NCBI GenBank assembly: GCA_944332225.1
Contig: CALVJO010000014.1
Location: forward strand, 1 to 38,940
DNA from: an uncultured Bacilli bacterium
GTDB lineage: Bacteria > Bacillota_I > Bacilli_A > RFN20 > CAG-449
Length of the DNA: 38,940 bases
Direction: 5' to 3'
Part shown: one piece after another, positions 13,582 through 33,335 of the stretch
Layout of the letters: each line of letters opens with the position of its first letter
How positions within the stretch are numbered: the stretch's first letter is position 1
The notes under the pieces: generated by a model
Told to the model about the DNA's origin: nothing
Databases searched by the model: none
What the model saw: the letters and a program-made list of their open reading frames with translations, nothing else
Program-made: the position numbers and the translations under genes

Positions 13582-14253
13582 ATGTTTAAGGTTTTACTAG
13601 TTGAGGATGATATTGATTTATCAGATACCATAAAATTATATTTAACAAAAAAAGGATTCGATGTTTATTGCTCTTATTCAGCAAAGTATGCTTTAAAAGA
13701 GCTTGAAAAATATCCGGTTGATATTATTATAACCGACATCATGATGCCTAATATTGACGGAATAACTTTTATTAAAGAGATTAGAGATTATGGAGTTAAG
13801 TGCCCGATTTTAATAATCTCCGCGAAAGATCAGATCAAAGATAAGGAACAAGGCTTTCTCGCCGGCGCGGATGATTATATGGTTAAGCCAATTGATGTCA
13901 CTGAACTTGAATTAAGGATAAATGCCTTATTTAGAAGGGCTAATATTTCTAACGCGCATAAGCTAGAATTTAAATCAACCACCTTAGACGCGGATTCTTT
14001 AACTGTCGTGACTGATGGTAAAACATTTGAGCTACCTCAAAAAGAGTTTCAAATATTATTTAAATTACTTTCTTATGAAAACAAGATCTTCACTAGGGTC
14101 GCTTTGATGGATGAATTTTGGGGTATTTATACGGAAAGTGAAGAAAGAACGATTGATACCCATATTAATAGATTAAGGGATAAATTTAAAAACAATCCAG
14201 ACTTTGAAATTGTTACCATTCGAGGATTAGGTTATAAGGCAGTAAAAAAATAA
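13582..14253 (+). CDS. OmpR/PhoB-family response regulator
   Basis: A 223-aa transcription factor. The receiver domain has acidic residues E8, D9, D10, phosphoacceptor Asp52 in IIITDIMMPNIDG, the SAKDQ switch and MVKPID (conserved Lys). The winged helix-turn-helix (about 128-222) carries LPQKEFQILFKLLSY, the recognition-helix region RTIDTHINRLRDKF, and the wing TIRGLGYKAVKK. GGAGG lies 6 nt before the ATG. The gene overlaps its kinase by one base (TAATG). Confidence 0.94.
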   Translation: MFKVLLVEDDIDLSDTIKLYLTKKGFDVYCSYSAKYALKELEKYPVDIIITDIMMPNIDGITFIKEIRDYGVKCPILIISAKDQIKDKEQGFLAGADDYMVKPIDVTELELRINALFRRANISNAHKLEFKSTTLDADSLTVVTDGKTFELPQKEFQILFKLLSYENKIFTRVALMDEFWGIYTESEERTIDTHINRLRDKFKNNPDFEIVTIRGLGYKAVKK

Positions 14254-15317
14254 TGAATAATTCACATAACAAATCAAGCATTTATTTTAGATTTTCTTTA
14301 TTGATATTCGTCTTCTTTTTTGTCTTGATTGTGTTAGTAGGAATTATTATTTGTATAGTTTTAATGTCTCCTTTTGCCCCTTTACTAATGCATGGATTCG
14401 CCTCGACTACGATTTTCACGATGCTGATCATCTTACTAGCCTCCGCGATTTTAGCTTCCATGCTCTTTTATTTTTTAGGGAGAAAGCCTTTATCTTCTTT
14501 AGTTGATTTATCAGTTAAATCGAAAGAAGTTGCTCAAGGTAATTTCTCTTCTAGAGTTAAAGTTGAATCTAACATTCCTGAATTAAACGAAGTTTTAAAA
14601 AACTTTAATTACATGGTTGAAAATCTATCAAAGTTAGATACTTTATCTAATGACTTTATCTCTAATGTATCGCATGAATTTAAAACTCCCCTCGCGGTTA
14701 TTAGAAGCAACGTGAATATTCTAGAAAATGCCTCTTTAAGCGAGGAAGAAAAACAAAAATGCTTAACTAGGATTAATGATTCTATTGAAAAATTAACTGT
14801 CTTAATCTCCAATGTTTTAAAGATATCTAAGCTTGATAATAATCAAGTTGAAGTTGACCTTAAAGAAGTAAGATTAGATGAGGTGTTAAGACAATGTATC
14901 TTGGATCTATCTGATAGGTTTGAAAAGAAGCATTTAATCCTAGATTTAGAATTAGATGATTGTCTCATAAAATCGGATAAGGAACTTCTATCTCAAATTG
15001 TAAATAATTTAATAACTAACGCGATTAAGTTTTCTAATGAAGGTGGTATGATTTATCTATCTTTAGAAAATTCAAAACAAATTGTTATAACTGTTAAAGA
15101 TGAAGGAATCGGAATGAGCCAAGAAACCGTCAATCATATCTTTGATAGATTCTATCAAGGGGAAACTTCCCATTCTCGAGAAGGAAATGGGCTAGGGTTA
15201 ACAATCGTCAGCAAGATTGTGAAAATATTAAATGGTAAAATCGAAGTTTCATCAAAAATTAATGAAGGAACGACCTTTAAAGTTATCTTTCCTAAGTCTC
15301 AGTTAGTGAAACAATAA
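14253..15317 (+). CDS. HAMP/HisKA sensor histidine kinase
   Basis: A 354-aa classical kinase: two membrane helices (about 13-38 and 50-75) joined by only about 12 residues, so there is no extracellular sensor domain and sensing is probably within the membrane. A HAMP linker follows (GRKPLSSLVDLSVKSKEVAQ). The dimerisation box SNVSHEFKTPLAVIRS contains phospho-His141. The ATPase domain has NNLITNAIKFS, VKDEGIGM and GNGLGLTIVSKI. It pairs with the OmpR-type regulator just upstream. Short-loop kinases of this layout often watch over envelope stress or antimicrobial peptides; here that is only a suggestion. Confidence 0.93.
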   Translation: MNNSHNKSSIYFRFSLLIFVFFFVLIVLVGIIICIVLMSPFAPLLMHGFASTTIFTMLIILLASAILASMLFYFLGRKPLSSLVDLSVKSKEVAQGNFSSRVKVESNIPELNEVLKNFNYMVENLSKLDTLSNDFISNVSHEFKTPLAVIRSNVNILENASLSEEEKQKCLTRINDSIEKLTVLISNVLKISKLDNNQVEVDLKEVRLDEVLRQCILDLSDRFEKKHLILDLELDDCLIKSDKELLSQIVNNLITNAIKFSNEGGMIYLSLENSKQIVITVKDEGIGMSQETVNHIFDRFYQGETSHSREGNGLGLTIVSKIVKILNGKIEVSSKINEGTTFKVIFPKSQLVKQ

Positions 15318-15380
15318 AAATTATATTTAATTTAATCATTAGTTAAAACTCAGTTTAAAAAAGATAAATAATCTTTTCTT

Positions 15381-15507
15381 GTAGCAAAAAGCTACGGCAT
15401 TCAATTTTCTCTTAGAGAAAGGTTGAATCCCCTTTCCAAGCTAGTGTTGGTGTCCCTTCATGAATATCCCCAAACTAAGCATAACTCGCCAAGACTAGCT
15501 TTTTTTG
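15381..15507 (+). ncRNA. Putative structured RNA with terminator upstream of the lipase-like gene
   Basis: Three stacked foldable elements lie in a 225-bp gene-free gap. Hairpin 1 is GTAGC-AAAAA-GCTAC (15381-15395). Hairpin 2 has ATTCAA (15399-15404) pairing TTGAAT (15423-15428), with inner TTTCTC/GAGAAA. Hairpin 3 has AAGCTAGTGTTGGTG (15438-15452) pairing CGCCAAGACTAGCTT (15487-15501) with one G-G mismatch and a 34-nt apical part, followed by seven T. It could be a free small RNA or a leader that attenuates the next gene. It does not match riboswitches, 6S, SRP RNA or tmRNA that I can recall. Confidence 0.5.
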
Positions 15508-15541
15508 TTGCTTAAAAATTTTAAAGTTAAATAATTTAATT

Positions 15542-16750
15542 ATGAAAAAGCAAACTGTATTTGATTATTTAAATAAATATGGGAATTACTCTTTTATCGG
15601 AAAAGAGTTTAATGAGGTAGATGGAGCGATTCTAGCTCTTTTAACTTATTTTAATTATAAAGATGTAGTACCTTCTTTAGGGTCTAATTACTTAGATGTT
15701 CCTCTTTATAGGCTTAGTGATGATTCATTATTAGATTATCTTTTAGAAGGAACAGTAACCACCTCAACTGACTCTAGATTCTTTCCTCTAGCGTGTAAAT
15801 CTAAGCGATTTGGTAATATTAGCTTAAATTATTGCTTTGAAAAGTTTGATAAAGAATTAGCTATCCAATTTTTTGCGATTACATATATTTTAGATAATGA
15901 TATCGTTTGCGTCTCATTTAGGGGTACAGATTCATCATTAGTTGGATGGAAAGAAGACCTTATGATGGCGGTTAACGATTATCTCCCTTCCTATATTGAA
16001 GCCGACGCTTATCTTGAAACGATAGGAAAGATCTTTAATACATCAAAAATAATTGTCATTGGTCATTCTAAAGGTGGGGCTCTCGCGGTTCATTCTTCTT
16101 CCCATGCAAGCAAAGATATTCAAGATAGAATCATCAATGTATATGATTTTGATGGACCTGGATTTAGAAAAGCCTTAGATAATTTAAAAGGCTATGAAAA
16201 TATTAAAAGTCGAATCATTAAAATAATACCAATTGATTCAGTGATTGGAATCTTGTTAGAAAGTTCCACCCGAGCGAAAGTTATTAAAGCCGCGGGATTT
16301 TCTTTAGCCCAACATTCTCCTTACATGTGGTATATCGATGATGATCATTTTATTGAGGTGGAACAAACAACATCAGGTTCAGCCTTCTGGTCATATAATA
16401 TGCATGATTTTTTAGAAACTTTAAATGATGAAGAAAAAGTGATATTTATCGATAAGATTTTTTCTTTGGTCGAACAAGCCAAAATCGATACAGTTCATGA
16501 TTTCTTGCATGGAGTTGATAAAAAATTATTTGCGTCAATTAAAGCTTTAATCAATATGATGAAAGATGAGCAAACAAGAGATCTGTTTAAAAAGATAATA
16601 GTTACATTCATTAAAATCTATTTTAAAAATGCTTCGAGCTTTAGGACTAGAAGAAAAATAGATTTCGCTAAAGCTAATCGTGACGAGATGATTGCTTTAA
16701 TTATTAAAGATGAGCCTACTCCTCTTTTGACTGAGAAACAGGAACAATAA
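15542..16750 (+). CDS. Mbeg1-like (DUF2974) alpha/beta hydrolase, lipase class 3 type
   Basis: A 402-aa cytosolic-looking protein. Residues 1-60 (KKQTVFDYLNKYGNYSFIGK, FNEVDGAILALLTYFNYKDV) and the nucleophile elbow VIGHSKGGALAV (Ser176) match the Mbeg1-like family of predicted lipases. CVSFRGTDSSLVGWKEDLMMA is the oxyanion/GTD segment of class 3 lipases. The catalytic Asp is probably in YDFDGPGF and the His in the HSPYMW or MHDF region. Gut Firmicutes carry many such proteins, and the substrate is unknown. There is no obvious ribosome site close to the ATG. The 3' end overlaps the convergent gene by 35 bp. Confidence 0.82.
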   Translation: MKKQTVFDYLNKYGNYSFIGKEFNEVDGAILALLTYFNYKDVVPSLGSNYLDVPLYRLSDDSLLDYLLEGTVTTSTDSRFFPLACKSKRFGNISLNYCFEKFDKELAIQFFAITYILDNDIVCVSFRGTDSSLVGWKEDLMMAVNDYLPSYIEADAYLETIGKIFNTSKIIVIGHSKGGALAVHSSSHASKDIQDRIINVYDFDGPGFRKALDNLKGYENIKSRIIKIIPIDSVIGILLESSTRAKVIKAAGFSLAQHSPYMWYIDDDHFIEVEQTTSGSAFWSYNMHDFLETLNDEEKVIFIDKIFSLVEQAKIDTVHDFLHGVDKKLFASIKALINMMKDEQTRDLFKKIIVTFIKIYFKNASSFRTRRKIDFAKANRDEMIALIIKDEPTPLLTEKQEQ

Positions 16751-17557: not shown

Positions 17558-17584
17558 TGTAATGCATGTGCCGTCTTAGCTCAA
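17556..17584 (-). promoter_or_regulatory. Candidate promoter of the divergent membrane-protein gene inside tRNA-Thr
   Basis: On the minus strand, TTGAGC (17584-17579, the complement of the tRNA D-stem), a 17-bp spacer and TACAAT (17561-17556) precede the ATG at 17534. The spacing is ideal and the -10 differs from consensus at one base. The D-stem is a conserved tRNA sequence, so the -35 match may be coincidental. Confidence 0.4.
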
Positions 17585-17645
17585 CTGGCAGAGCAATCGA
17601 CTTGTAATCGATAGGTTGTTGGTTCGATTCCGATAGACGGCACCA
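17570..17645 (+). tRNA. tRNA-Thr (anticodon TGT), integration target
   Basis: A 76-nt cloverleaf: acceptor GCCGTCT/AGACGGC, D-arm GCTC...GAGC, anticodon stem ATCGA/TCGAT around CTTGTAA (anticodon TGT), T-arm GTTGG-TTCGATT-CCGAT, encoded A-CCA, then a T8 run. The last 17 bases (from the T-arm 3' strand through CCA) are part of the att core, so integration keeps the tRNA whole. Confidence 0.96.
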
Positions 17646-17958
17646 TTTTTTTTAGAATTTTATAGTTTACATTTTGTAATTTACAAATTTTTATATATTC
17701 ATTTGGATCTTCTATTAATTCTCTTAGATTCCCAGTGATTAATTCTGTTCCTGTATAATCTTGATCGCTTGCCTTTTTTAGTAAAACAAGCTGCTCTTTT
17801 GCTATTGATGGATTTATATCCCGATTTAAGTAATTTAGTAACAAATGATTTAAGATTGTAAAATAATATTTTTTAGCTTCAAAAAAATGTTTTAGTTCAC
17901 CATAGATAATATTATGTTCACCATATTTAAATAATATTTGATAGTAATGTTTAGCCAT
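17581..17958 (-). CDS. Small prophage protein with C-terminus rewritten by integration (copy 1)
   Basis: The first 106 or so residues equal those of the copy-2 gene at 28165-28500: a helical, Tyr/Lys-rich protein with KHYYQILFKYGEHNIIYG and a KKASDQDYTGTELITGNLRE segment, function unknown. Here the frame runs through the att core into the antisense strand of tRNA-Thr, so the ending SIGD is replaced by SIGIEPTTYRLQVDCSAS (125 aa from the chosen start). I chose ATG 17958 because GGAGG lies 7 nt upstream, while the ATG two codons earlier abuts it. The start overlaps the integrase stop codon. The chimeric tail is probably non-functional or unstable. Confidence 0.65.
   Translation of the reverse strand: MAKHYYQILFKYGEHNIIYGELKHFFEAKKYYFTILNHLLLNYLNRDINPSIAKEQLVLLKKASDQDYTGTELITGNLRELIEDPNEYIKICKLQNVNYKILKKMVPSIGIEPTTYRLQVDCSAS
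17629..17669 (+). other. attL, 41-bp core overlapping tRNA-Thr 3' end
   Basis: The core begins TCCGATAGACGGCACCA (tRNA 3' end), continues through eight T and ends AGAATTTTATAGTTTA. The same 41 bases recur at 28171 and 38713. The left flank is tRNA T-loop and the right flank is prophage. Confidence 0.93.
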
Positions 17959-17960
17959 AT

Positions 17961-19076
17961 TCATCCCTCCATTTCCTTAACTAGTTTTTCGATTAATTTA
18001 TCGATTTTATTGTCTTTCTCTTTAGATTTTTTTAAATAGTATTCATCAGTTACTTTAATTGAATCGTGTCCAAGATATAAAGCTATCTCATCGATGCTGA
18101 TTCCTCTTTCTTTTAGATGAGTTACTAATGATCTTCTAAATTTATGGGGAGTTAAATCTTTGTCAAGACTCTTTAGATGTCTTCTAAAAGTATTTTCATG
18201 AATCGGTATTGAGTGATTATCGTTTTTATTCTTATTTCCTAAAGAGAAAAATAAGTAATCATCAGACTTTAAATGATGACTTTTGATATGCCTCTTTAAT
18301 AAATTTGCATATTCATCAGATAAAGAATTAATTCTATCGCTTTTTTTGGTTTTTGGAGGAATAACAATAAAACCTCCGTTTCCAGTTTTAAAATTTACTG
18401 ATTGATAATTTTCAATGGTTTTATCCTTGAATGAAATAGAATCTACTTTTAGACCTAGAAGCTCTGATAATCTATAGCCATAGATGAATAAGGTGAGCAA
18501 AGCAAGTTTATAATATTCAGATTTTTCCTTCTTTATAACGGATTTTATTTTCTCTAGTTCTAATATTTGAGGTTTAGAAACCATTCTAGTTATAGAATAA
18601 TCCTTAAATAAGGGAAGAATGAAAATATATGAATAATAATATAGATAGCTTTGATAGATAAAATAGAAGAAACGTTTTAAGAAATTTAATTTTTTATTTT
18701 TAGTCGCATAATTATTATTTTCATTTTTAATCATTTCCCAAGCCTTATCAGCATCTATTTTTGTAAGGTTGATAATTAATGATTCATTAGGAAAATACTT
18801 AAAGTAAGAATGATTCATCGCGCGTTCTATTTCTCGGAAATATGTTATTTTAGTAAACTTTTGAAGATAATTTTTAAATAGGATAAGACCATCTCGATAG
18901 GTTAGATTATTGAGAATAAGAGATCGATTATTGCTATTTGGATAAATAGAATAGATTAAATCTTGCTCTTTACTCAAGGTTTCTTCATAGGAAAGAAATC
19001 CATCTTTGATATGATTTGTCCCATCAATAGTTAGCTTATAATAATATGTTTTGTTAGTAGAGTTATAATATATCAT
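17961..19076 (-). CDS. int: Tyrosine recombinase (prophage integrase), copy 1
   Basis: A 371-aa integrase that catalyses exchange at the tRNA-Thr att core. The N-terminal arm- and core-binding region is followed by the catalytic domain with Arg202 (YGYRLSELLGLK), Lys about 242-245 (PPKTKKSDR), His311 and Arg314 (LTPHKFRRSLVTH), His337 and nucleophile Tyr346 (LGHDSIKVTDEYY). All six catalytic positions are present. I chose ATG 19076, one base after the ATPase stop, with AGGTG upstream; a GTG at 19085 would overlap. It is transcribed at the end of the structural-gene unit and points at attL. No separate excisionase is recognised; the small gene that follows is a candidate only by position. Confidence 0.93.
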   Translation of the reverse strand: MIYYNSTNKTYYYKLTIDGTNHIKDGFLSYEETLSKEQDLIYSIYPNSNNRSLILNNLTYRDGLILFKNYLQKFTKITYFREIERAMNHSYFKYFPNESLIINLTKIDADKAWEMIKNENNNYATKNKKLNFLKRFFYFIYQSYLYYYSYIFILPLFKDYSITRMVSKPQILELEKIKSVIKKEKSEYYKLALLTLFIYGYRLSELLGLKVDSISFKDKTIENYQSVNFKTGNGGFIVIPPKTKKSDRINSLSDEYANLLKRHIKSHHLKSDDYLFFSLGNKNKNDNHSIPIHENTFRRHLKSLDKDLTPHKFRRSLVTHLKERGISIDEIALYLGHDSIKVTDEYYLKKSKEKDNKIDKLIEKLVKEMEG

Positions 19077-19077
19077 T

Positions 19078-20667
19078 CTATGCACCTGCCTCTAATGCTT
19101 TTGGTGAGTTAATCATGGCTTTAAATCTATCTTCATTAGATTCATATAATGAAGAAATTTCTTTTAAATCTTGATCAGAATGAATTTCACTTTCATTCAT
19201 CAAAAAATCATAAAAGTCAGAATATTCGCATTTTCGATAATTCCCATAACACCAAGATAAAGGGAAAATTAGAGTTAATTCCTCAGCTAGATTAGGATCA
19301 TCTAAAGACGCTAGCTTAGTAGAGTAGAGAACTCGATATTTTAAAAATGCTGAAGCAGTTAATTTTTTTCTTTTATCCCATAATTTATATAATTTTTCTT
19401 TATATGGATTGTTTCCATGCAAGTATTTTGATTCTCCATCAATTTCTTTATTCCTGTTTTTTCTAGCTTTTTTAAACATTTTTTTAGTTATTCTATTTTC
19501 CTTTTTTTGTAAAATTCTTTGCTGTAAAGGTAAATTTCCTACGATGGATGATGAGATAATTCTAATGTAAGAATTTGCTAGCTCTCGAATTAGAGGTGCG
19601 ATTCTTGATGTATTTTGCGATGAAGAAATATAATACGCGGTTTCATTTTTAAGTTGTCTAAATAATCTTAAAACCATATCTTGCCCTAAAAGCGATAGTT
19701 TACGATAATCTGATGTGTTTTTATAATTTGATAAGGCTTTTTCGTCTTCAATGAATAATGAATATGATGGAATATAGAATTTTTTTAGTGATTCTTTGTC
19801 TTTGATATTAAAATAATCATCAGATAAATCGTAGTTATAATTATTAGTTATTCTTGAATAGAGTTTATAATTTGAGAACACATAATTATTTCTTAATGAT
19901 GCAATGTAGGCTTCAACATATGTTTTTAATATGTTGTTATTTGGAGTTAAGGAAACATAATCAGTTGAAACATTGTTTTTTGAAAATGCATCGTTAATCA
20001 TCTTGTTTTTATATAAATGATATATGATTTCTTTTTCTGAATAATTATCTTGATATAGCTTTTTTACAGTATCTCTAAGTGGATTAAAATCAAAATAATA
20101 GAACCGTTTTTCAATTGATAATATTGTTTCCTCTATTTTTTCTTGAAATAAGATTGTTCGATAATGAGAATAACCATTTATGAAAGACGTTTTACCTCCT
20201 CCTACTGACGCCTCGATCATTACAAGGTAAGAGAACTTTTTATCAATAATATCATGAGTTTTGAAACATTTGGCTAATAGATCATATCTATAAGATAATT
20301 GTTTTCTAAGCTTTGGGGAGAAGATTCTTTGAAACAAATTATATTTATAAGGTGCAGGATAAATATTATATATTGAATGTTTTAACTGATATTTTTCCAC
20401 GAATCTATATATAATTCGTTTCACAAATTCAATTAAATGCACGATTAGACCAAGCTTAACTACTAAATTGAATAATATTTTCAATGATTTATATACAAGT
20501 AAACATATATTTTTAAACAGTTTAAATAGTGATTGGAAAAAATTAACCGCGGCATTCCAAAAGTTGAAAAAGATTAGTAATAAAGATAATATGGCTAGAA
20601 GTCCAATTACTATAGAATAACGTTGAATTAAATCGATTAGTATTTGAAAAAATTCCTCTAAAGTCAT
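19078..20667 (-). CDS. Zot/pI-like filamentous-phage assembly ATPase, copy 1
   Basis: A 529-aa membrane ATPase. An N-terminal helix (about 18-40) and more hydrophobic segments to about residue 90 precede the P-loop domain. Walker A is EASVGGGKTS (Lys159, Thr160; Ala replaces the first Gly). Walker B is SLFIEDE (303-309). After it come LRLFRQLKNETAYYISSSQN (Gln351) and IRELANSYIRII, the same order as the post-Walker-B QD/Q and 'R-x-L-A' elements of pI/Zot proteins that drive virion extrusion. In Ff pI the membrane helix follows the ATPase, whereas here it precedes it. It starts 2 nt after the pIII-like stop codon, so translation is coupled. Confidence 0.78.
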   Translation of the reverse strand: MTLEEFFQILIDLIQRYSIVIGLLAILSLLLIFFNFWNAAVNFFQSLFKLFKNICLLVYKSLKILFNLVVKLGLIVHLIEFVKRIIYRFVEKYQLKHSIYNIYPAPYKYNLFQRIFSPKLRKQLSYRYDLLAKCFKTHDIIDKKFSYLVMIEASVGGGKTSFINGYSHYRTILFQEKIEETILSIEKRFYYFDFNPLRDTVKKLYQDNYSEKEIIYHLYKNKMINDAFSKNNVSTDYVSLTPNNNILKTYVEAYIASLRNNYVFSNYKLYSRITNNYNYDLSDDYFNIKDKESLKKFYIPSYSLFIEDEKALSNYKNTSDYRKLSLLGQDMVLRLFRQLKNETAYYISSSQNTSRIAPLIRELANSYIRIISSSIVGNLPLQQRILQKKENRITKKMFKKARKNRNKEIDGESKYLHGNNPYKEKLYKLWDKRKKLTASAFLKYRVLYSTKLASLDDPNLAEELTLIFPLSWCYGNYRKCEYSDFYDFLMNESEIHSDQDLKEISSLYESNEDRFKAMINSPKALEAGA

Positions 20668-20669
20668 AA

Positions 20670-22436
20670 TTACTTATTTTGTTCTTTCTTTTTAAATATG
20701 GAAATAATCTTACCAATTAAGCTAACGACAATTAAGCTTATAATTATCCAAAAGATAAGCTTGATAACATTAAAAGCATCAGAGAACCAATCTACAATTG
20801 GGTCAAACAATGTATCTAACCAGTTTAAATTAGTTGATCCGCCTCCTGAATTCTCTAAATCTTTTGGTTCTACTGATACAGTTGCTTTAATAACGTCTCC
20901 ATCAGAATTGACTAATGTCATCTCAGTTGCTTCGACATCCATATAATAATTCATTGTAAATTTATATATTTCATATCCAGTATAAGTAATATAAATAGGA
21001 AGGGTAGTTCCCGGGGAAGTTGTTGTTTCAAGGAATGTCTTTTTTTCTAATCCAGAATCATCTAAATACTCAATAAATTCTTGATAATACCCCGTAGGAT
21101 CAACGTTATCACTTGCTGTTTCATAAGTGAAGACTAGATTACTATAGTTATATTCAAATTCATCAAAATTAACGATGTAATAGTTATCATTAGGCATGTA
21201 AGAAGAAGCAAAATCGATAATATCTTCCAATTCCTTAAATGCATCCTTAAATTCATTGGCAGTTTGTATTTTCTTCCAGGTAAATTTCGTGCTTCCGATA
21301 TTCGTTGTTACATTAGTTGGTTCGATGGTTGAATAGGTGTAAGGTAAAGTATATATATCGTTTCGTCTTACTTGCTCTTTAGTGTATCCATAGAATCTAT
21401 CTATCTCTCCTTCATCATTTAAGTGATAATACTGAGCATGCGGTAAAAGATAATTATTATACCTGTCACAATTAGAATCAATTTCACCTGTTGTAGTATC
21501 AGTTTCAAAGTAATTGTAGTGATCAACATTAGATATGATATTGTCAGCGTATGCGGTCAATAGCATCTCTTTCCATCTTAAGGATATATCAGCTATTTCA
21601 TAATCTGACCAACCCAAAGGCAAGCTAAAAGAATAGAAAAACTGATCTTCTAAACTATCCGAATTGTATCCAAACAAATTAGAAACTGATTCTATAAATT
21701 GCTCCCACCAGTCATCCGTGTCAAAACGATATGACCAAACATGGGGATCCTCTAATTCAATTATTGTCGTATATGATGAAAAATCTTGCCTGTAATAAGT
21801 AGTTTCGTTTATGTTAGTTTGTTTATTGTAACGTGCTTTTACTAATGATAAGTCATCATTTGATAATGTTTTATCGAAGTTAAAATAAGATGTATTTGAT
21901 TTTAAATTATTAGTGCTGGATATAATATTAATTTCAAAATTTAACTGATCATTACTATCAATAAACTCTTTAATTTCATCCGATAATTTATTTTTATATG
22001 TTAATCTATAATAGCCTTCATCATTTGAATCGATTATTCCTAATTCGATATTTTCTAATGCAATTGCTTCTTTATTTTGGCTGGTTATTGATCCAGTTAA
22101 GGAGAATGAAGTTTCTAACTTTAAAGGAAAGTAAATATAAAAGAGTGAAACATAATCATCATTAAAAGAAGGGAGAAAATTAATTATAGTTGGATTGATC
22201 AATTGATCTGAGGAAAAATTATATTTTTGATAATCAAAATTAAATGATTGGAGATCTTCTTCGATTGTAGTATTTATTTTAAACTGCTCTTGAAATTCAT
22301 CTTGCTTGGCTTTATTGATTATCTGTTCTCTTATATTGATTAAATTAGATGAAATACCTCCCATGGTTGTAACAGGGGATAAAAATGAAGAAGAAATCAG
22401 TAGAAATATATTTGAATAAAGAAATAACTTAGTCAT
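20670..22436 (-). CDS. pIII-like virion surface/attachment protein, copy 1
   Basis: A 588-aa exported protein: signal peptide (about 1-25), a long Asn/Asp/Tyr/Thr-rich extracellular part (about 26-550), a Gly-Ser hinge (ENSGGGSTN), then one membrane helix (about 557-579) and basic tail KKKEQNK. This is the topology of inovirus pIII adsorption proteins and it lies directly upstream of the Zot-like ATPase, as in filamentous phages. No recognisable receptor-binding domain. GGAGGGG lies 5-6 nt before the ATG. Alternative: a host-surface or plasmid-type exported protein; the neighbour makes the phage reading more likely. Confidence 0.65.
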   Translation of the reverse strand: MTKLFLYSNIFLLISSSFLSPVTTMGGISSNLINIREQIINKAKQDEFQEQFKINTTIEEDLQSFNFDYQKYNFSSDQLINPTIINFLPSFNDDYVSLFYIYFPLKLETSFSLTGSITSQNKEAIALENIELGIIDSNDEGYYRLTYKNKLSDEIKEFIDSNDQLNFEINIISSTNNLKSNTSYFNFDKTLSNDDLSLVKARYNKQTNINETTYYRQDFSSYTTIIELEDPHVWSYRFDTDDWWEQFIESVSNLFGYNSDSLEDQFFYSFSLPLGWSDYEIADISLRWKEMLLTAYADNIISNVDHYNYFETDTTTGEIDSNCDRYNNYLLPHAQYYHLNDEGEIDRFYGYTKEQVRRNDIYTLPYTYSTIEPTNVTTNIGSTKFTWKKIQTANEFKDAFKELEDIIDFASSYMPNDNYYIVNFDEFEYNYSNLVFTYETASDNVDPTGYYQEFIEYLDDSGLEKKTFLETTTSPGTTLPIYITYTGYEIYKFTMNYYMDVEATEMTLVNSDGDVIKATVSVEPKDLENSGGGSTNLNWLDTLFDPIVDWFSDAFNVIKLIFWIIISLIVVSLIGKIISIFKKKEQNK

Positions 22437-22450
22437 ACTTACCCCTCCAG

Positions 22451-22678
22451 TTAAAATATGATTTCATCTTTAGAAACTAATATTTTGAATATATCTAAAT
22501 CCCATTCAGTAAAGAAATTTGTAATATTCGATAAATAGATCAATAAAGATAAAACTATAGCAACAACTACAAAAATAATTCCTTTAGTAACAGTAAAACC
22601 AGTTTTATAAAATATGATTCCAAGCAGCAACAAAAGTGCGATGGAACCAATAAATAAACATATTGTATAATTATTCAT
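22451..22678 (-). CDS. 75-aa two-helix membrane protein, coat-protein candidate, copy 1
   Basis: A first hydrophobic helix (about 5-25, LFIGSIALLLLLGIIFY) could act as a signal sequence and a second (about 33-53, GIIFVVVAIVLSLLIYL) as the membrane or virion helix. The tail is acidic and aromatic. Cleavage after the first helix would leave about 47 residues, in the size range of inovirus major coats. Against this, coats usually end basic. The ribosome site AAAGGAG is strong. It lies between a conserved stem-loop and the pIII-like gene, and a decayed copy of its start survives beyond attR. Confidence 0.55.
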   Translation of the reverse strand: MNNYTICLFIGSIALLLLLGIIFYKTGFTVTKGIIFVVVAIVLSLLIYLSNITNFFTEWDLDIFKILVSKDEIIF

Positions 22679-22732
22679 GCAAGTCTCCTTTCTTTTTTAC
22701 TTGATTATTTTCAAAAATTTCTTATTATATGG

Positions 22733-22793
22733 ATGTGGTTAGAGAAGCGTAGTTTTCCTAGGGAAACGGGGCTCGGCTCTAACCACATTTTTT
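22733..22793. repeat. Stem-loop A with GCGTAG/GCTCGGC blocks, copy 1
   Basis: A 12-bp stem ATGTGGTTAGAG (22733-22744) / CTCTAACCACAT (22777-22788). Inside are GCGTAG (22747-22752), a sub-hairpin GTTTTCC/GGGAAAC and GCTCGGC (22771-22777). A T6 run follows on the plus strand. On the coding (minus) strand it lies between the 120-aa gene stop and the 75-aa gene, without a U-run, so it is not a terminator for that operon. It shares its blocks with the structure at 27709-27790. Confidence 0.75.
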
Positions 22794-23154
22794 ATTGGTT
22801 AGAATCAATAATATTTTGAATTGTTTCTACGTCCTCTAGAGATCTAATCTTCATATTGTTTAATTCTTGTTTTCTAACATGACTTTTAGTCTTAAAGATT
22901 CTTTTTGACATATAGCTTTCTCTAGTATCGTTTTTATTAGGATTCTTTTTCAATTTGGTATAATTATGCCTATTTCTATTATGCGTAATAGGTAGCCTAG
23001 ACCATTCTTCATCAGTATATTTTACTTCCAGAGCTGGATGCTTACTATATGAGTCATAGTAAAATTTATGCTTTAAATTAAATATTCCTATCACAATTAA
23101 AGGAGTGAATGAAGCTAAGATTATAAATATGCAAGCGATGATAACAACAATCAT
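22792..23154 (-). CDS. Membrane protein with basic cytoplasmic tail, paralogue of the 127-aa gene, copy 1
   Basis: A 120-aa protein with an N-terminal helix (about 2-25) and then a strongly basic tail. Between residues 31 and 115 it aligns with the 127-aa protein encoded near the att site: FYYD, a Pro, WSRLP/WSRMS, a T/SH box, KNPNKNDTRESYMSKRIFKT versus KNKDGKSIYVSKSIKT, and a C-terminal helix with II. It is therefore a membrane-bound version of the same domain. The function is unknown; DNA binding or packaging at the membrane would fit the charge (inference). Confidence 0.7.
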   Translation of the reverse strand: MIVVIIACIFIILASFTPLIVIGIFNLKHKFYYDSYSKHPALEVKYTDEEWSRLPITHNRNRHNYTKLKKNPNKNDTRESYMSKRIFKTKSHVRKQELNNMKIRSLEDVETIQNIIDSNQ

Positions 23155-23169
23155 AAGTCGCCTCAGTTA

Positions 23170-24234
23170 TTAGTAAATTAATTCATCATCTGATGTGTTA
23201 ATTCCTGTTGGTTCTAAATCAAAAGTTGAAAAATCATAGTCAACATAAACATATATTTTTGCTGATGAAGATCCTTTAACAACAGTATCTTCATCTATTG
23301 TTAATGTTGCTTTATCTAGATTCATTCTAAAACCCAAATGCCCTGAACAATAATCTTTTAAAAATGCATGATAAGACGGCGCGTCATCATAATTAGATGA
23401 TACATCCCATATATCTTGAGCCGATGGCAATATCTCATTTAATTTATATTGATGATTTGAAATAGATGTAGTTATAGATTTTGAAAATAAATCTTCAAGG
23501 GCTTGGAAGGATTCTTGAATGAATTCCCAGTTATGGTAATCTTCAAAACTTCCTGATGAACCTACTTCTCCTGCTAAAACATTAACAGTTAAATCACTTG
23601 TATCTATAGTTAATTTACTCACATCTAATGATGAATAATCAAAGTCTAAAGTATAATCCGATACATGATTATCGTTTGAATAATCTAAGATGAGTTCTCT
23701 TATGTCTTGAGTAGAAGTGGCAAGAAATGGAGATCTAGAGTCACCATCATAGGAAAGATCCAGTAATTTCTTTTGATATTGACACGTGACAGTAGCTTTG
23801 ATGCTGGTATCTGCTAAGGATTGTATTTCAACTATGATTACCCTATTAAAAGCAGCTCCTCCAATATTAGTGACGGTTATAGTTTTAGTTTTCTCATTTT
23901 TCTCTACAGCTATGATGGCTGATGCGTCTGATTGATCATCTTGATAATATGATCTAACTGAAATTGATTCATTAACAGTTGATGCACTTGCTGGCTTTTC
24001 AAATGAATAAGTAAAAGATTGAACTACATTACCATTTTCTAAAACTTCAGTAGCAAGACGTTTCACTTTTAATCCTTGTTCTTCAATTTCAGTTTCTAAA
24101 TTATTTTCAATTTTATCTGTTTCATTGTTGGCAGGTCCATAATTAATTCTATTAGCGTAGCTGAATGCTGCTACTGCGCCTAAACCTAATAATCCTGATA
24201 AAATAAATGTAATAAAGCTTGATATTTTTCCCAT
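23170..24234 (-). CDS. Signal-anchored Ig-like surface protein (354 aa), copy 1
   Basis: N-terminal signal/anchor helix (about 7-28), then an acidic linker and an Ig-like beta domain (about 50-160). That domain aligns with the 321-aa neighbour: VK-L-T-VLENGNVVQSFTYSFEKP versus VKLLSAETLETGETVQTFSY, then TITVTNIGGAAFNRVIIVEI versus TITLTCNAAFDKVILVKL, then TVTCQYQKK versus TITCNYEKK. The C-terminal 190 residues are beta-rich and acidic. It is probably displayed outside the cell or on the virion. The start follows AAAGGAGG, which overlaps the stop of the 60-aa gene. No known family. Confidence 0.7.
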   Translation of the reverse strand: MGKISSFITFILSGLLGLGAVAAFSYANRINYGPANNETDKIENNLETEIEEQGLKVKRLATEVLENGNVVQSFTYSFEKPASASTVNESISVRSYYQDDQSDASAIIAVEKNEKTKTITVTNIGGAAFNRVIIVEIQSLADTSIKATVTCQYQKKLLDLSYDGDSRSPFLATSTQDIRELILDYSNDNHVSDYTLDFDYSSLDVSKLTIDTSDLTVNVLAGEVGSSGSFEDYHNWEFIQESFQALEDLFSKSITTSISNHQYKLNEILPSAQDIWDVSSNYDDAPSYHAFLKDYCSGHLGFRMNLDKATLTIDEDTVVKGSSSAKIYVYVDYDFSTFDLEPTGINTSDDELIY

Positions 24235-24248
24235 GTCATAAACCTCCT

Positions 24249-24431
24249 TTAAATTATCGTTAACTCTAAGTTATATGAGCTAGATAATTGATCTTCTTGA
24301 ATATCGTCTTGAGACGATGCTGGTTCTTGAACTGGTGTGTCAAAATTGATTTCTGCAGCCCTAAATGTTACAAGCCCTACGCAGGCTCCAAACAATAGAC
24401 CGCTTAAAAATAAAACTAATATTTTTCTCAT
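24249..24431 (-). CDS. 60-aa signal-anchored small protein, copy 1
   Basis: One hydrophobic helix (about 4-24, containing LLFGACVGLV) and an acidic, Ser/Gln-rich tail ending YNLELTII. Its N-terminus resembles the two flanking large proteins (LSGLLFGACVG...EINFDTP versus LSGLLGLGAVAAF...RINYGPA), so it looks like a miniature member of the same family without the Ig-like part. AGAGGAG precedes the ATG. A coat-protein role is conceivable from size but the acidic tail argues against it. Cys16 is not in a good lipobox. Confidence 0.6.
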   Translation of the reverse strand: MRKILVLFLSGLLFGACVGLVTFRAAEINFDTPVQEPASSQDDIQEDQLSSSYNLELTII

Positions 24432-24499
24432 TGTCTTCTCCTCTATTTTCTAATTAGTGTTAACTCTATGTTGACTAGATTAATTGGTGAGGTATTATT

Positions 24500-25465
24500 T
24501 TAGAAAATTACATTATCCGCGCCAGAAACATCAATTTCGGAAATATTTAAATTGAAATCTTCAATATTTAATTTTATGGAAAATTGAGGTTCACTATCAA
24601 AGCCTACAGTGTAAGAAAAATCTCCATCATGCATGGTAAATCCCCAATCGACAGCGTTTGAAAGATAGATAAGACCATTACTGGACTTTAAGTTTGCTCT
24701 ATCTTCACTTGTGGCTAATTCCCATAGCTCTTCAGATGTAGCAATTTGATGCTCGCCATTAAATATAGCAATTAATTTTTGCGATAAATTGCTACTAAAA
24801 GTATATGAATCTGCACCTTTAAAAGTTAAATCATCACCTGATTGAGTTTGATCCATGTATCCATTTGTATAATCATGATCAATCGTGTATTTTGAATATT
24901 CAAAAAAATCTGTTTCATTGATTAAATAGTCAAAAATATCAGAGCCTTCGCTAGCATCATCAAAAATAAATGTGAACGTTTGCCCTTCATGACCAATAAT
25001 TTTTTTCTCATAGTTACAAGTGATGGTAGCCGATGCTCCTCCACCATCGGCAGCAGTTAGCTTGACTAAAATAACTTTATCGAAGGCAGCGTTGCATGTT
25101 AAAGTGATGGTTTTTTCCGCGGTATCAATAGATGCTGTGACTTCGGTAGCTGCACCTCCATCTTGATATTCTACTGAGGTATTAATGTTTTGATTTGTAG
25201 CATTTGCTGGAGTTATTGTATATGAAAATGTTTGAACGGTTTCACCTGTTTCTAACGTCTCAGCAGATAATAACTTTACTGACATCTTATTGACTTCGGT
25301 TACTTCTGTTTCTAATCCATCGCCACTATCGGTATCTTCAATTTCATCGGCTTGACTAGTTCCATAGTTAATTCCAAAACCATAGGAAACACCTAAAGTA
25401 GCCCCAACACCTAAAGCGATGGAAGCTAATGATGCTAATAATAAGATTGTTGTTGATTTGTTCAT
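24500..25465 (-). CDS. Signal-anchored Ig-like surface protein (321 aa), copy 1
   Basis: Signal/anchor helix (about 7-30, LLLASLASIALGVGATLGV), then the motif INYGT shared with the 354-aa paralogue. An acidic linker and an Ig-like domain (about 55-160; TITPANATNQNINTSVEYQD resembles bacterial Ig-like repeats) follow, then an acidic beta-rich C-terminal domain ending GADNVIF. AAAAGGAG lies 8 nt upstream. After its TAA the same frame continues 18 codons to a TAG (24443-24499) and resembles the tail of the 60-aa protein, suggesting past duplication. Confidence 0.7.
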   Translation of the reverse strand: MNKSTTILLLASLASIALGVGATLGVSYGFGINYGTSQADEIEDTDSGDGLETEVTEVNKMSVKLLSAETLETGETVQTFSYTITPANATNQNINTSVEYQDGGAATEVTASIDTAEKTITLTCNAAFDKVILVKLTAADGGGASATITCNYEKKIIGHEGQTFTFIFDDASEGSDIFDYLINETDFFEYSKYTIDHDYTNGYMDQTQSGDDLTFKGADSYTFSSNLSQKLIAIFNGEHQIATSEELWELATSEDRANLKSSNGLIYLSNAVDWGFTMHDGDFSYTVGFDSEPQFSIKLNIEDFNLNISEIDVSGADNVIF

Positions 25466-25477
25466 AATTGTCTCCTT

Positions 25478-25798
25478 TTAATTTTCATCAAAGCTCACAT
25501 CATCGTCTCTAATTCCTTTTTTTAAATCATTCCTTTCGATGATAAACTTAATTAGTAATTCGCTTTGATTTTTTTCTAGATGGTCTTTTAAATCTTTTCT
25601 AGCAAGATTGATAATTTTGAAAAAAATATCAAAAATTAAATTTGCTTCAATCATCACAGATTGAGGAGGGCAAAATTTGCATCTTGTCCTGTCTTGGCAA
25701 ATATAGCAATTCCTTATTTTTAAATAATTTTTCTTATGCTCAGTTTTGCCATGTCTAGGTATTTTTAAATTAATTCTTAGATTTTCAATAAGTTTCAC
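25478..25798 (-). CDS. Small four-cysteine (zinc-ribbon-like) protein, copy 1
   Basis: A 106-aa basic protein with Cys31-x2-Cys34-x5-Cys40-x2-Cys43 (NCYICQDRTRCKFCPP), a likely zinc-binding knuckle, then a helical half (LIFDIFFKIINLARKDLKDH). It follows the replisome organizer at once, so a role in replication or single-strand DNA binding is plausible but unproven. The only canonical start, GTG at 25798, lies inside the ribosome-binding sequence AGGAGGTG. An ATT codon three codons later has the ideal spacing, so the real start may be non-canonical. Confidence 0.65.
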   Translation of the reverse strand: MKLIENLRINLKIPRHGKTEHKKNYLKIRNCYICQDRTRCKFCPPQSVMIEANLIFDIFFKIINLARKDLKDHLEKNQSELLIKFIIERNDLKKGIRDDDVSFDEN

Positions 25799-25801
25799 CT
25801 C

Positions 25802-26839
25802 CTAATTAAAGTCGCTTAAATAATCGTAGGAAGCTATTTTCATCTTTTCCTCGATATTTTCTTTATCAGTTTTTATTTCACCATTTAATGTCTTCTTTAA
25901 TAGGATTTCAAAGACATCAATAGACATGTCGTTTTTATGCTTCAAGAATGTCAAAAGATGTGATTCAATCACTGAAAATAATTTGTCTGGAGAAACATTC
26001 TCTTCGCTTACTATATTCTTCAGAACCTGCGTTATTTCGTTTATTCCTTGCTTTGATTTAATCAAGCCATGATCACATAAATAGTTAATTATTTTATCGA
26101 AAACTATGGCGCCAGAAAATATTTCATCTTCGATGATTTTATTAATTGATTTAATATAATAATCATTTTTATTTTTAATCGATTGGATATTAGTTCTACT
26201 TAATCTTGTGATGAAACAATCATTAGCTTTATTGAAATTTTTTAATCCGTAATCTGAAATTAAATTAGTTATGATAGATTCAAATTCAGCTTTTTCTTTA
26301 GAAGCTATGAATTTTGAATAAATTAATCCAGATAACGCCTCATCGATAGATGACGTTCCAATTAATTTATTTAAATTATCTAAATCTACTTCTTTCGAAG
26401 GATTATCTTCTTTTAATTTTTGTAATCGTTCTTGTGATTCTCTTTTAATCTTTCTCTTTTCATTTGTTTTCTCACTCTCAGTTTGAGTTAAATTTGGTAG
26501 ATCTGGAATAATTAAACAATCTACATCAATTATTACTAAATCTAATTCTTCTAAAGATTCAAGACATCTATGAACTATTTCATTATCAGAATCTTTATCT
26601 TGATTTGTGTTGAATCTAATTAAACGTCTTATAAAGTCGCTTGATATTGCTTTGTTTGCCCTTTCAGAATAAATAAAGCCATTGTTAGAAAGAGATTTTA
26701 AAATTAAATTTAGATAAACAAACTGGTAATCGATAGGGGAGTCTTCATTGTCTAAAGCTTTTTCTTTTAAGGCTTCCATCCGTTCAGATAAAAAGAATTG
26801 ATCATTTAATTGGATGAAATAATAATTTCTCTCTTTCAT
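25802..26839 (-). CDS. Phage replisome organizer (RepO/DnaD-like), copy 1
   Basis: A 345-aa replication initiator. The N-terminus (NYYFIQLNDQFFLSERMEAL ... YQFVYLNLILKSLSNNGFIY, then SSDFIRRLIRFN and a helix ending LDLVIID) matches the phage replisome organizer N-terminal winged-helix domain, which binds an origin and recruits the host helicase loader. A charged linker (about 120-155) and a helical C-terminal domain follow. It is the first gene of the long minus-strand unit, divergent from the repressor. AAAGG lies 7 nt before the ATG. Filamentous phages usually use rolling-circle Rep proteins, so this replication module is an unusual partner for a Zot-type ATPase. Confidence 0.75.
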   Translation of the reverse strand: MKERNYYFIQLNDQFFLSERMEALKEKALDNEDSPIDYQFVYLNLILKSLSNNGFIYSERANKAISSDFIRRLIRFNTNQDKDSDNEIVHRCLESLEELDLVIIDVDCLIIPDLPNLTQTESEKTNEKRKIKRESQERLQKLKEDNPSKEVDLDNLNKLIGTSSIDEALSGLIYSKFIASKEKAEFESIITNLISDYGLKNFNKANDCFITRLSRTNIQSIKNKNDYYIKSINKIIEDEIFSGAIVFDKIINYLCDHGLIKSKQGINEITQVLKNIVSEENVSPDKLFSVIESHLLTFLKHKNDMSIDVFEILLKKTLNGEIKTDKENIEEKMKIASYDYLSDFN

Positions 26840-26947
26840 AACAAGGCCTTTCTTAACGTTAAATACATTAACTAAGCCTAACTCTAGTGTTTTTTTTTTT
26901 TTTTTAAGGGTTTTATCGTTTTTTCTCTTAAAAGTTAAAATATTAAT
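26840..26947. promoter_or_regulatory. Divergent control region with T16 tract, copy 1
   Basis: 108 bp separate the organizer and repressor starts. The region holds the palindrome TTAACGTTAA (26853-26862), further TTAAC half-sites (about 26868), and an uninterrupted run of 16 T (26890-26905). It is the expected place for operators of the Cro/CI-type repressor. No convincing -35/-10 pair could be fixed in either direction. Confidence 0.55.
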
Positions 26948-27253
26948 ATGTTTAATGAAAAATTAAGAGAGTTAAGACTTAAAAACGGCCTATCACAGGT
27001 AGAATTATCAAAAATATTAAATATTTCTCAAACCTCGTATTCCCAGTGGGAGAGAGGAATTTGTGAACCAAATATAGAAACGTTAAAAAAGATAGCTAGA
27101 TATTTTAAAGTGTCTTTGGATATTCTGCTAGAATCCAATATTATTCCATTATCAATTGATCAATTAAAAATAGAGATTGAGAATCTAGATAGAAAACAAT
27201 TAAAGAATCTTTTATTAGAAATTATTGATGAGATTTTTTCTATTATCTTATAA
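26948..27253 (+). CDS. Cro/CI-type HTH repressor, copy 1
   Basis: A 101-aa XRE-family regulator: helix-turn-helix at about residues 3-58 (KLRELRLKNGLSQVELSKIL, ISQTSYSQWERGICEPN, LKKIARYFKVSLDILL) and a short helical C-terminal dimerisation part (IDQLKIEIENLDRKQLKNLL). It lacks a peptidase or LexA-like domain, so induction would not be by RecA-driven autocleavage. It is the only plus-strand gene of the element and probably represses the divergent organizer promoter. No Shine-Dalgarno is seen before the ATG (TATTAATATG), which may mean leaderless translation. Confidence 0.9.
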   Translation: MFNEKLRELRLKNGLSQVELSKILNISQTSYSQWERGICEPNIETLKKIARYFKVSLDILLESNIIPLSIDQLKIEIENLDRKQLKNLLLEIIDEIFSIIL

Positions 27254-27766
27254 GGCGTGGAAAAATATGATTTTTCCTACCCTAAATTCTTTAAATTTGC
27301 CTAAATAGTCATTTAGTCAAATTTTAAATATAAAGTTAGGGAAGGTTTTTGCCGAAAACAAATTCACTTTCAAGAATCCACATGTTCATTATTATCTTAT
27401 ATTCATCAGTCAAATATTATTTATTTTTATGACTATGACTATATCTATGTCAAAATTGAATTCCAATAAAACTGGTTTTTCTCACAACAAAAAGACGTTA
27501 TTAAACGTTTGATTTTTAAACTATGAGATAAACTAAATTATTAAAATTGACGGTTTAATTATTAAGTTTATCTCTATCTATATATCAAAATTTATTGTTA
27601 ATCCTATAACTATTTAAGTATGTTGACGGCATATTTATCTCAAATAGTCTAGGATTAAAGTAAATTTTATATCTTGACATAACAATAATCATTGTTAGAA
27701 TAAATGGTGCTAGGTGCGTAGATATTATTATCTATTCGATTTTGCACTTTGTGCACATTGATTAAT
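27254..27766. other. Gene-free stem-loop cluster, origin/packaging candidate, copy 1
   Basis: 513 bp between convergent gene ends, with no credible ORF. Stem-loops in order: GGAAAAAT/ATTTTTCC (27259-27277, repressor terminator candidate); CCCTAA/TTAGGG enclosing CTAAAT-AGTC-ATTTAG (27280-27341); a 50-bp inverted repeat with ends GAGATAAACT/AGTTTATCTC (27525-27574); a second long one with ends TTAATCCTA/TAGGATTAA and ACTATTT/AAATAGT (27598-27658); TAACAAT/ATTGTTA (27680-27697); TGCAC/GTGCA (27743-27755). The two long hairpins both carry TTGACGG at their tip. This is the most likely site of a replication origin and phage packaging signal. Confidence 0.6.
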
Positions 27767-27790
27767 TCAATGCTCGGCCCTAGCGTTTTT
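27709..27790. repeat. Stem-loop B with GCGTAG/GCTCGGC blocks, copy 1
   Basis: Stem GCTAGG (27709-27714) / CCTAGC (27779-27784) with GCGTAG (27716-27721) just inside the left arm and GCTCGGC (27772-27778) just inside the right, then a T5 run on the plus strand. The right part overlaps the last codons of the 127-aa gene. The stem sequence differs from structure A while the internal blocks are the same. Confidence 0.72.
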
Positions 27791-28150
27791 ATTTGCTTTT
27801 CTTTTTTTGTTTATGATTGAGTAAATAAACGCCTTGATTCGTCCCTTATCGGTTTCGGTTAAATGTGTTTTGTTATCCTTTTTCCTTTTACTAGAGATTG
27901 AACTAGTTTTTATAGATTTACTAACATAAATAGATTTTCCATCTTTATTTTTGGATGTTAACTCTATATATTTTCTTTTCTTTGCTGGAGAGGTAGTTGA
28001 ACTCATTCTAGACCATTTTCTTCCATTATTTCCAATTTGCAGCGATGAATGAATTTTGTGTTTAGGATTATTCATAGTTGCTAAATCATAATAAAATTCG
28101 CCCTTGTTAAATGTATCCTCATCGAATATGATGTCTGATTTTTTACTCAT
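27767..28150 (-). CDS. Basic 127-aa protein at the element end, paralogue of the 120-aa gene, copy 1
   Basis: A highly basic protein without a membrane helix: acidic start (DIIFDEDTFNKGEFYYD), then HKIHSSLQIGNNGRKWSRMS, YIELTSKNKDGKSIYVSKSI and a Lys/Arg-rich tail. It shares the FYYD/WSR/YVSK framework with the membrane-bound 120-aa protein. The family is not named. In the tandem array and the excised circle it follows the small att-spanning gene, whose stop TAA overlaps its ribosome site (TAAGGAGG). This downstream position is lost at attR. Confidence 0.7.
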   Translation of the reverse strand: MSKKSDIIFDEDTFNKGEFYYDLATMNNPKHKIHSSLQIGNNGRKWSRMSSTTSPAKKRKYIELTSKNKDGKSIYVSKSIKTSSISSKRKKDNKTHLTETDKGRIKAFIYSIINKKRKANKNARAEH

Positions 28151-28164
28151 TGTTTATTGCCTCC

Positions 28165-28500
28165 TTAGTCTCCGATAGACGGCACCATTTTTTTTAGAAT
28201 TTTATAGTTTACATTTTGTAATTTACAAATTTTTATATATTCATTTGGATCTTCTATTAATTCTCTTAGATTCCCAGTGATTAATTCTGTTCCTGTATAA
28301 TCTTGATCGCTTGCCTTTTTTAGTAAAACAAGCTGCTCTTTTGCTATTGATGGATTTATATCCCGATTTAAGTAATTTAGTAACAAATGATTTAAGATTG
28401 TAAAATAATATTTTTTAGCTTCAAAAAAATGTTTTAGTTCACCATAGATAATATTATGTTCACCATATTTAAATAATATTTGATAGTAATGTTTAGCCAT
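28165..28500 (-). CDS. Small att-spanning prophage protein, native form (copy 2)
   Basis: 111 aa from the ATG with GGAGG 7 nt upstream. Its last codons cross the 41-bp att core (KKMVPSIGD ending), and its stop lies six bases past the core, within the prophage right-end sequence. This is the form encoded by the circle. It is helical and Tyr/Lys-rich with no recognised domain. Co-transcription after the integrase and its location at the att site make a directionality factor or a lysogeny-linked protein worth testing, but no motif proves it. Confidence 0.7.
   Translation of the reverse strand: MAKHYYQILFKYGEHNIIYGELKHFFEAKKYYFTILNHLLLNYLNRDINPSIAKEQLVLLKKASDQDYTGTELITGNLRELIEDPNEYIKICKLQNVNYKILKKMVPSIGD
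28171..28211 (+). other. Internal att core (circle-type junction)
   Basis: Identical 41 bp to attL and attR, but with prophage DNA on both sides: the right end of copy 1 and the left end of copy 2. This is the junction expected in an excised circle, and it restores the reading of the small gene into the 127-aa gene. Confidence 0.93.
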
Positions 28501-28502
28501 AT

Positions 28503-29618: not shown

Positions 29619-29619
29619 T

Positions 29620-31209: not shown

Positions 31210-31211
31210 AA

Positions 31212-32978: not shown

Positions 32979-32992
32979 ACTTACCCCTCCAG

Positions 32993-33220: not shown

Positions 33221-33274
33221 GCAAGTCTCCTTTCTTTTTTACTTGATTATTTTCAAAAATTTCTTATTATATGG

Positions 33275-33335
33275 ATGTGGTTAGAGAAGCGTAGTTTTCC
33301 TAGGGAAACGGGGCTCGGCTCTAACCACATTTTTT
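33275..33335. repeat. Stem-loop A, copy 2
   Basis: Identical to 22733-22793: 12-bp stem, GCGTAG and GCTCGGC blocks, plus-strand T6. Confidence 0.75.

Follow-up and report, generated by a model that had tools for sequence, protein, structure and literature searches.

Two-component systems and small RNAs directed at translation starts

In Streptococcus, the two-component system CiaRH has as its small RNAs the csRNAs, intergenic transcripts of 51-202 nt that consist of stem-loops and a terminator (PMC3091779, PMC8186281). Their promoters carry the CiaR repeat NTTAAG-N5-TTTAAG, in which the final G is invariant in both halves (PMC3091779). The RNAs expose an unpaired C-rich stretch complementary to the Shine-Dalgarno (SD) sequence and also to the AUG, with CAU found in 53 of 61 (PMC3091779, PMC8186281), and action through base pairing with the target has been demonstrated for a csRNA of S. 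agalactiae (PMC9603419). LhrC of Listeria monocytogenes, which is linked to LisRK, binds SD regions through UCCC motifs, one of them in the terminator loop, and an unpaired C-rich UCCC motif also binds the SD sequence in RsaE, SprD and FsrA of the low-GC bacteria Staphylococcus aureus and Bacillus (PMC4132741).

The locus and its features

The window, by which we mean the whole stretch of 38,940 nt that was analysed, comes from an uncultured Bacilli bacterium, here called G000; two other species of the same genus are called G001 and G002. Between the stop codon of a sensor kinase gene, which ends at 15317, and an Mbeg1-like gene that starts at 15542 lies an intergenic gap of 224 nt, and this gap contains the RNA, as the first-pass annotation had placed it. 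The features of the locus are as follows.

13582..14253, + strand: OmpR/PhoB-type response regulator, proposed controller of the RNA (Pfam Response_reg, Trans_reg_C)
14253..15317, + strand: sensor histidine kinase (Pfam HisKA, HATPase_c, HAMP)
15341..15359, + strand: direct repeat AGTTAAAACTC AGTTTAAA with an 11-bp period, proposed regulator site
15365..15372, + strand: -10-like sequence TAAATAAT, putative, from its position in the alignment
15381..15431, + strand: 5' domain of the RNA, with hairpin 1 (15381-15395) and hairpin 2 (15396-15431) in the predicted fold
15438..15506, + strand: hairpin 3 and U-run, a terminator with a conserved 34-nt loop (15453-15486)
15449..15490, + strand: conserved core, GGTG, loop and CGCC
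15453..15471, + strand: anti-start-site part of the loop, TCCCTTCATGAATATCCCC, the complement of SD, spacer and AUG
15530..15541, + strand: AATAAT-N6 ahead of the Mbeg1-like ATG, probably a separate and perhaps leaderless promoter
15542..16750, + strand: Mbeg1-like (lipase-like) gene, syntenic neighbour (Pfam PF11187, E 2.7e-68)

For the regulator, none of the 25 NCBIfam models shown reached its equivalog cut-off. At or above the gathering score, Rfam 15 found nothing but tRNA in the window, and its four weak hits in 15300-15560 all fall far below their gathering scores. No earlier description of the RNA was found in Rfam or in the literature, where the search was aimed at this lineage only in part.

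Elsewhere on the contig, an exact tandem duplication with a period of 10,542 bases occupies 17629-38753, with 17629-28211 identical to 28171-38753. It starts in the 3' end of the tRNA-Thr gene at 17570-17645 and carries a phage-type integrase gene; either an integrative element sits here in tandem or the end of the contig is misassembled. The last residues of the reading frame at 17584-17964, VPSIGIEPTTYRLQVDCSAS, come from read-through of the tRNA-Thr gene on the other strand. The surroundings of CTATATCCCCTAGGGGATATTCTTTAATTAAC recur in the G000 contigs C25 (at both ends), C40 and C45 and inside C21; this recurrence near contig ends suggests that a repeated element probably breaks the assembly there. 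The contig itself begins, at 1-74, with a 5'-truncated tRNA match (Rfam, 42.5 bits) that ARAGORN did not list.

Predicted fold

Three hairpins in series, the third resembling a terminator with a 34-nt apical part, had been proposed from the letters alone, and the fold of 15379-15508 bears this out over 15381-15501. Hairpin 1 has 5 bp and a 5-nt loop. Hairpins 2 and 3 are separated by a single-stranded CUUUCC (15432-15437) that is found only in the RNA of the window and not in those of G001 and G002. Hairpin 3 (15438-15501) has 14 bp, one G.G mismatch and a loop of exactly 34 nt, predicted as a single large open loop with no inner structure, and its end overlaps a U-run at 15500-15506. A simple terminator scan did not list this hairpin, because the scan admits only loops of 3-8. 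The minimum free energy of the segment is -37.3 kcal/mol, compared with -22.0 +/- 3.2 for 200 dinucleotide shuffles, none of which was as stable (z -4.7); for hairpin 3 alone (15438-15508), one of 200 shuffles was as stable (z -3.65). The orthologous RNAs of G001 and G002 gave z values of -5.3 and -4.9, again with 0/200 shuffles as stable in each, and all three folds retain the 34 unpaired loop nucleotides and the U-run. The 5' domain forms two hairpins in the window and one long hairpin in G001 and G002. When longer flanks were folded (15360-15530; z -4.45), hairpins 2 and 3 were retained and hairpin 1 was replaced by a stem of the 5' end with sequence just past the terminator; hairpin 3 is intact in the best longer-flank fold of the window, G001 and G002 alike.

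Conservation within the genus

A DNA search of 58 genomes gave, besides the window, two matches with E < 1e-9, in G001 and G002, and the matched segment was the hairpin 3 loop; the remaining matches (E >= 3.5e-4) were short pieces only. The genus was sampled by three genomes, including that of the window. All three share the order regulator, kinase, RNA and Mbeg1-like gene, and in G001 the regulator and kinase are preceded, as in the window, by M3 peptidase, CysK-like and CysE-like genes. These two homologous gaps provide the comparison that the first-pass annotation had asked for, and the total lack of conservation that it had named as grounds for dismissing the RNA was not what they showed. 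The 42-nt core, which consists of the 34-nt loop and four closing pairs, is identical in G001 and G002 and agrees at 38 of 42 positions between G001 and the window. The rest of the RNA and the downstream gap are about 48% identical between window and G001, with 26/60 in the 5' domain, whose sequence and shape are not conserved, and 29/55 in the part downstream of the core. With that background, the binomial chance of at least 38 of 42 identities is 6e-9 when the columns are treated as independent. The kinases of window and G001 are 57% identical in protein sequence and 46% at third codon positions. Those of G001 and G002 are 98% identical, and the three genomes therefore count as only two independent lineages.

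The stem of hairpin 3 varies in a different manner from its loop. The inner pairs GGUG/CGCC, which include a G-U wobble, are fixed, whereas six of the ten pairs that follow outward have different letters on both sides in G001 from those in the window: U-A to C-G twice, G-C to C-G, A-U to U-A, C-G to G-C and G-C to A-U. Pairs were matched by their outward order in the three folds and not by alignment column, because a G.G mismatch of the window corresponds to a bulged G in G001; the MAFFT alignments place gaps in the stem that disagree with the folds, and for that reason the changes were read from the ordered fold pairs. The outer stem has kept its pairing while its letters changed, and the loop has kept its letters. 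With its conserved place, loop and compensatory stem and no Rfam match, the element stands as a structured RNA of no assigned family, as had been suggested.

Searches beyond the genus

Among 18 genomes of the family, a 23-letter loop pattern with at most three mismatches was found at one place in each of the three genus members and in none of the other 15. A 19-letter pattern with at most two mismatches occurred at 37 places in 36 of 279 genomes of the order, against 5 for the reversed control. Twenty of the 37 places, three of them the genus copies, were examined as loci. None of the 17 examined places outside the genus was accepted as a copy of the RNA; 15 of them are covered, on one of the strands, by an open frame of 200 codons or more. 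In three cases (L054, L069 and L070) the match is unpaired in the fold, L070 having -15.6 kcal/mol and two mismatches inside an 842-codon open frame. An exact 20-letter pattern found two stretches among the GTDB 220 genome contigs, CALVKD010000028.1 (contig C28 of G002) and CALVJL010000016.1 (contig C16 of G001), and none among viral contigs. A distant blastn search with hairpin 3 matched nothing in phage and plasmid records. Mbeg1 relatives are present in 17 of the 18 family genomes, and no such RNA was seen in the stretches of up to 330 bases ahead of the Mbeg1 matches in other genera, a view that is partial and, for minus-strand loci, shows the wrong side. In the genomes, viral contigs, phage and plasmid records searched, we thus found no convincing copy outside the genus.

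Upstream repeats and putative promoters

Regulators of the OmpR/PhoB type, such as the one encoded next to the kinase, typically bind direct repeats with an 11-bp period. Each of the three genomes has such repeats ahead of the RNA: AGTTAAAACTC AGTTTAAA in the window, AGTTTAAAGAG AGTTTAAATTG AGTTTAAA in G001 and nearly the same in G002, with at least three units at the equivalent place in the latter two. The pattern AGTTTAAANNNAGTTTAAA with at most two mismatches was found 9, 17 and 21 times in G000, G001 and G002, and the reversed control 12, 8 and 8 times; the pattern is therefore not rare as such, and in G000 it is no more frequent than the control. At no more than one mismatch, the sole G000 match lies at this locus, as do two of the three G001 matches and two of the five found in G002, and the best match in the window's genome to the tandem AGTTTAAA repeat is that just upstream of the RNA. 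Between kinase and RNA, all three genomes have both the tandem repeats and a -10-like sequence. From the latter, TAAATAAT in the window, transcription would start near 15380 and the RNA would measure about 125 nt. We only infer this -10 sequence and start, since the region has promoter-like matches at the number that chance would give. Past the terminator, each of the three genomes has AATAAT-N6-ATG at identical spacing, which points to the Mbeg1-like gene having its own, perhaps leaderless, message.

A tandem array of the AGTTTAAA type and a terminator-like hairpin also lie beside the full RlmD-like methyltransferase gene of G001 and G002 (L097:1500-1700 and L099:1500-1700). The array is absent next to the RlmD-like orthologue of G000. 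A second RNA under the same repeats, which looked C-rich, was considered here and rejected, as it is absent beside the G000 orthologue. The full RlmD-like gene of G002 is on contig C34; partial copies, one with an internal stop, are at C87:9416-9604, C87:2919-3080 and C45:5-229.

The loop as a complement of translation starts

The unpaired loop contains CAU, six nucleotides and CCCC. The complement of its segment UCCCUUCAURAAUAUCCCC is GGGGAUAUUYAUGAAGGGA, which comprises a G-run, six nucleotides and AUG and reads like an SD sequence with its start codon. The R of the segment, beside the anti-AUG, is G in the window RNA and A in that of G001. The G-run lies at -10 to -7 relative to the AUG; in the sampled start regions of G000 (81 ORFs) and G001 (55 ORFs), G content peaks at -11 to -8 and at -12 to -8, respectively. 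The loop complement is a start-region sequence whose register is that of the genus. In shuffled loops, the arrangement CAU-N4-9-CCCC arose in 302 of 5000 for the window and 388 of 5000 for G001, and a looser form of it in 781 and 914, respectively, and we regard it as suggestive, not as proof.

A 15-mer of the loop complement with at most two mismatches was found at 37, 56 and 66 sites in G000, G001 and G002, against 9, 10 and 7 for the reversed sequence. Sites were fetched for G000 (37) and G001 (55), and only gene starts were classified, the mechanical criterion being an ATG, GTG or TTG in register, followed by at least 60 open codons and preceded by at most 25. It identifies 11 of the 37 G000 sites and 13 of the 55 from G001 as gene starts. 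The 37 include the RNA itself and one site that is counted twice because the tandem repeat duplicates it; the 55 do not include the RNA, and among the 13 at least C1:34514 falls within another long frame. Pairing was also compared with shuffled loops, using start regions, cleared of motif matches, from ORFs of 150 codons or more. There the G001 loop paired better than 100 of 100 shuffled loops and that of the window better than 90, being matched by 10 of 100, on ORFs that are not a random sample because the stretches had been fetched for pattern hits.

The best gene-start match in G001, C14:22603 (-25.2 kcal/mol), precedes the gene for a protein of 379 aa that weakly matches GNAT acetyltransferase; read from the sequence, 16 of 17 positions pair between GUUUGGAGAUAUUUAUG and the loop sequence CAUAAAUAUCCCCAAAC. 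The same GNAT-like gene and start region are present in G002. In G000 the best match, C12:12831 (-23.6 kcal/mol), precedes the substrate-specific component of an ECF transporter. No orthologous target pair was found among 13 candidate proteins of G000 and 16 of G001, the G000 stretches compared did not contain a counterpart of the GNAT-like gene, and this failure to find a target common to both lineages is the main weakness of the target reading. The neighbouring genes were considered as targets and set aside, since their pairing energies are unremarkable (-4.5 to -13.9 kcal/mol in the window, -6.9 to -13.6 in G001).

Possible roles of the RNA

The predicted structure, conserved gene order, fixed loop, compensatory stem, upstream repeats and start-region complementarity lead us to favour, as the probable explanation, a small RNA under the neighbouring two-component system whose terminator loop blocks translation starts. 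A signal would reach the kinase, and the phosphorylated OmpR-type regulator would sit on the 11-bp direct repeats in the promoter of the RNA. The gap would then encode a discrete trans-acting RNA of about 125 nt that ends in its own terminator, the outer stem of which may change as long as it stays paired while the fixed, C-rich 34-nt loop is presented. The loop would pair with mRNAs from other loci at their SD-plus-AUG regions and block translation initiation there, and the kinase signal would in this way be turned into repression of several proteins.

Conservation of the loop reaches past its anti-start-site part, which the small-RNA model alone leaves unexplained. Nearly the whole loop is kept together with the closing GGUG/CGCC and its wobble, beyond what a short pairing seed needs, and no conserved mRNA target was found; both facts would suit a loop that binds a protein or small ligand rather than mRNA. 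We consider such binding quite unlikely, given an open loop with no predicted inner structure and a complement that matches start regions in the register of the genus. The first-pass annotation had suggested that the apical part could be a ligand- or RNA-binding region: that the loop is functional is well supported, and its complementarity to a translation start region makes RNA binding a better fit than ligand binding. A role within the regulator-kinase mRNA, as a conserved 3' element with no promoter of its own (a terminator with a cis-acting loop, or a processed small RNA), would agree with the position of the RNA only 63 nt past the kinase stop and on the same strand in all three genomes; the intervening repeats and -10-like sequence, and a fixed loop that a plain terminator does not need, make it unlikely.

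The RNA lies ahead of the Mbeg1-like gene in all three genomes, as would a leader in which read-through past hairpin 3 turned that gene on. The data give no support for a functional tie to the gene, and such attenuation seems very unlikely: hairpin 3 persists in the best longer-flank folds of all three genomes, the gene has its own conserved AATAAT-N6-ATG, and the loop pairs weakly with the gene start (-6.5 and -6.9 kcal/mol). A minus-strand gene for a short peptide is a scarcely credible account of the conserved part. The peptides, read by eye, are indeed similar (MLSLGIFMKGH in the window, MLCLGIFMKGH in G001 and G002), but their ends differ (MLSLGIFMKGHQH and MLCLGIFMKGHRRTFF), the U-run is on the plus strand, and the compensatory stem changes would be left unexplained.

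Going beyond the favoured small-RNA reading, the RNA could represent a new class, in which a stem-variable terminator carries the whole 34-nt loop and GGUG/CGCC as one unit that mimics the complement of a start region, engages many mRNAs or a dedicated RNA-binding protein, and stands beside its own two-component system; it would amount to a csRNA-like circuit of independent origin in uncultured Bacilli with genomes of 1.3-1.7 Mb. We offer this as a speculation and hold it to be doubtful. In any event, a lineage represented here by public records of metagenome-assembled genomes has yielded a clearly conserved RNA that has no Rfam family, together with testable candidates for its regulator and its mRNA targets.

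Comparison with known small RNAs

CiaR is itself a regulator of the OmpR type. The csRNAs and the RNA described here have a common logic, namely direct repeats with N5 spacing before a promoter and an anti-start-site RNA under OmpR-type control. The RNA is likewise intergenic and ends in a terminator, its length of about 125 nt falls within the csRNA range if the start near 15380 is correct, and the loop with CAU, six nucleotides and CCCC provides the unpaired complement of SD and start codon. The invariant G of the CiaR repeat is, in contrast, lacking from both TTAAAA-N5-TTTAAA of the window and TTTAAA-N5-TTTAAA of G001 (TTWAAA), and the recognition helix of CiaR, VVEVYVSKVRKKL, differs from that of the window regulator, TIDTHINRLRDKF, when the two are placed by eye. 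Because of the repeat without the invariant G and the differing helix, we do not regard the RNA as a csRNA. There are several csRNAs per genome in Streptococcus, as against one copy per genome here; their anti-start-site sequence lies between two stem-loops and not within the terminator loop, and, unlike the csRNAs, the RNA gene here adjoins its two-component system.

LhrC is similar in being a two-component-linked small RNA with C-rich anti-SD motifs, one of which is in the terminator loop (PMC4132741). It differs in being multicopy with three redundant CU-rich sites, whereas the RNA here has one copy and one long C-rich loop that also carries the anti-AUG sequence; Rfam does not indicate sequence similarity between the two. 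RsaE, SprD and FsrA have in common with the loop an unpaired C-rich anti-SD motif, but the 34-nt loop is far longer than their UCCC seed and almost invariant over its length, and it has no family match. The RNA may work in the manner of the csRNAs and LhrC without being a csRNA, provided that it is expressed, regulated and repressive as we suppose. If so, the grouping of tandem TTWAAA repeats and an anti-start-site RNA with a regulator of the OmpR type occurs again outside Streptococcus, whether inherited or convergent.
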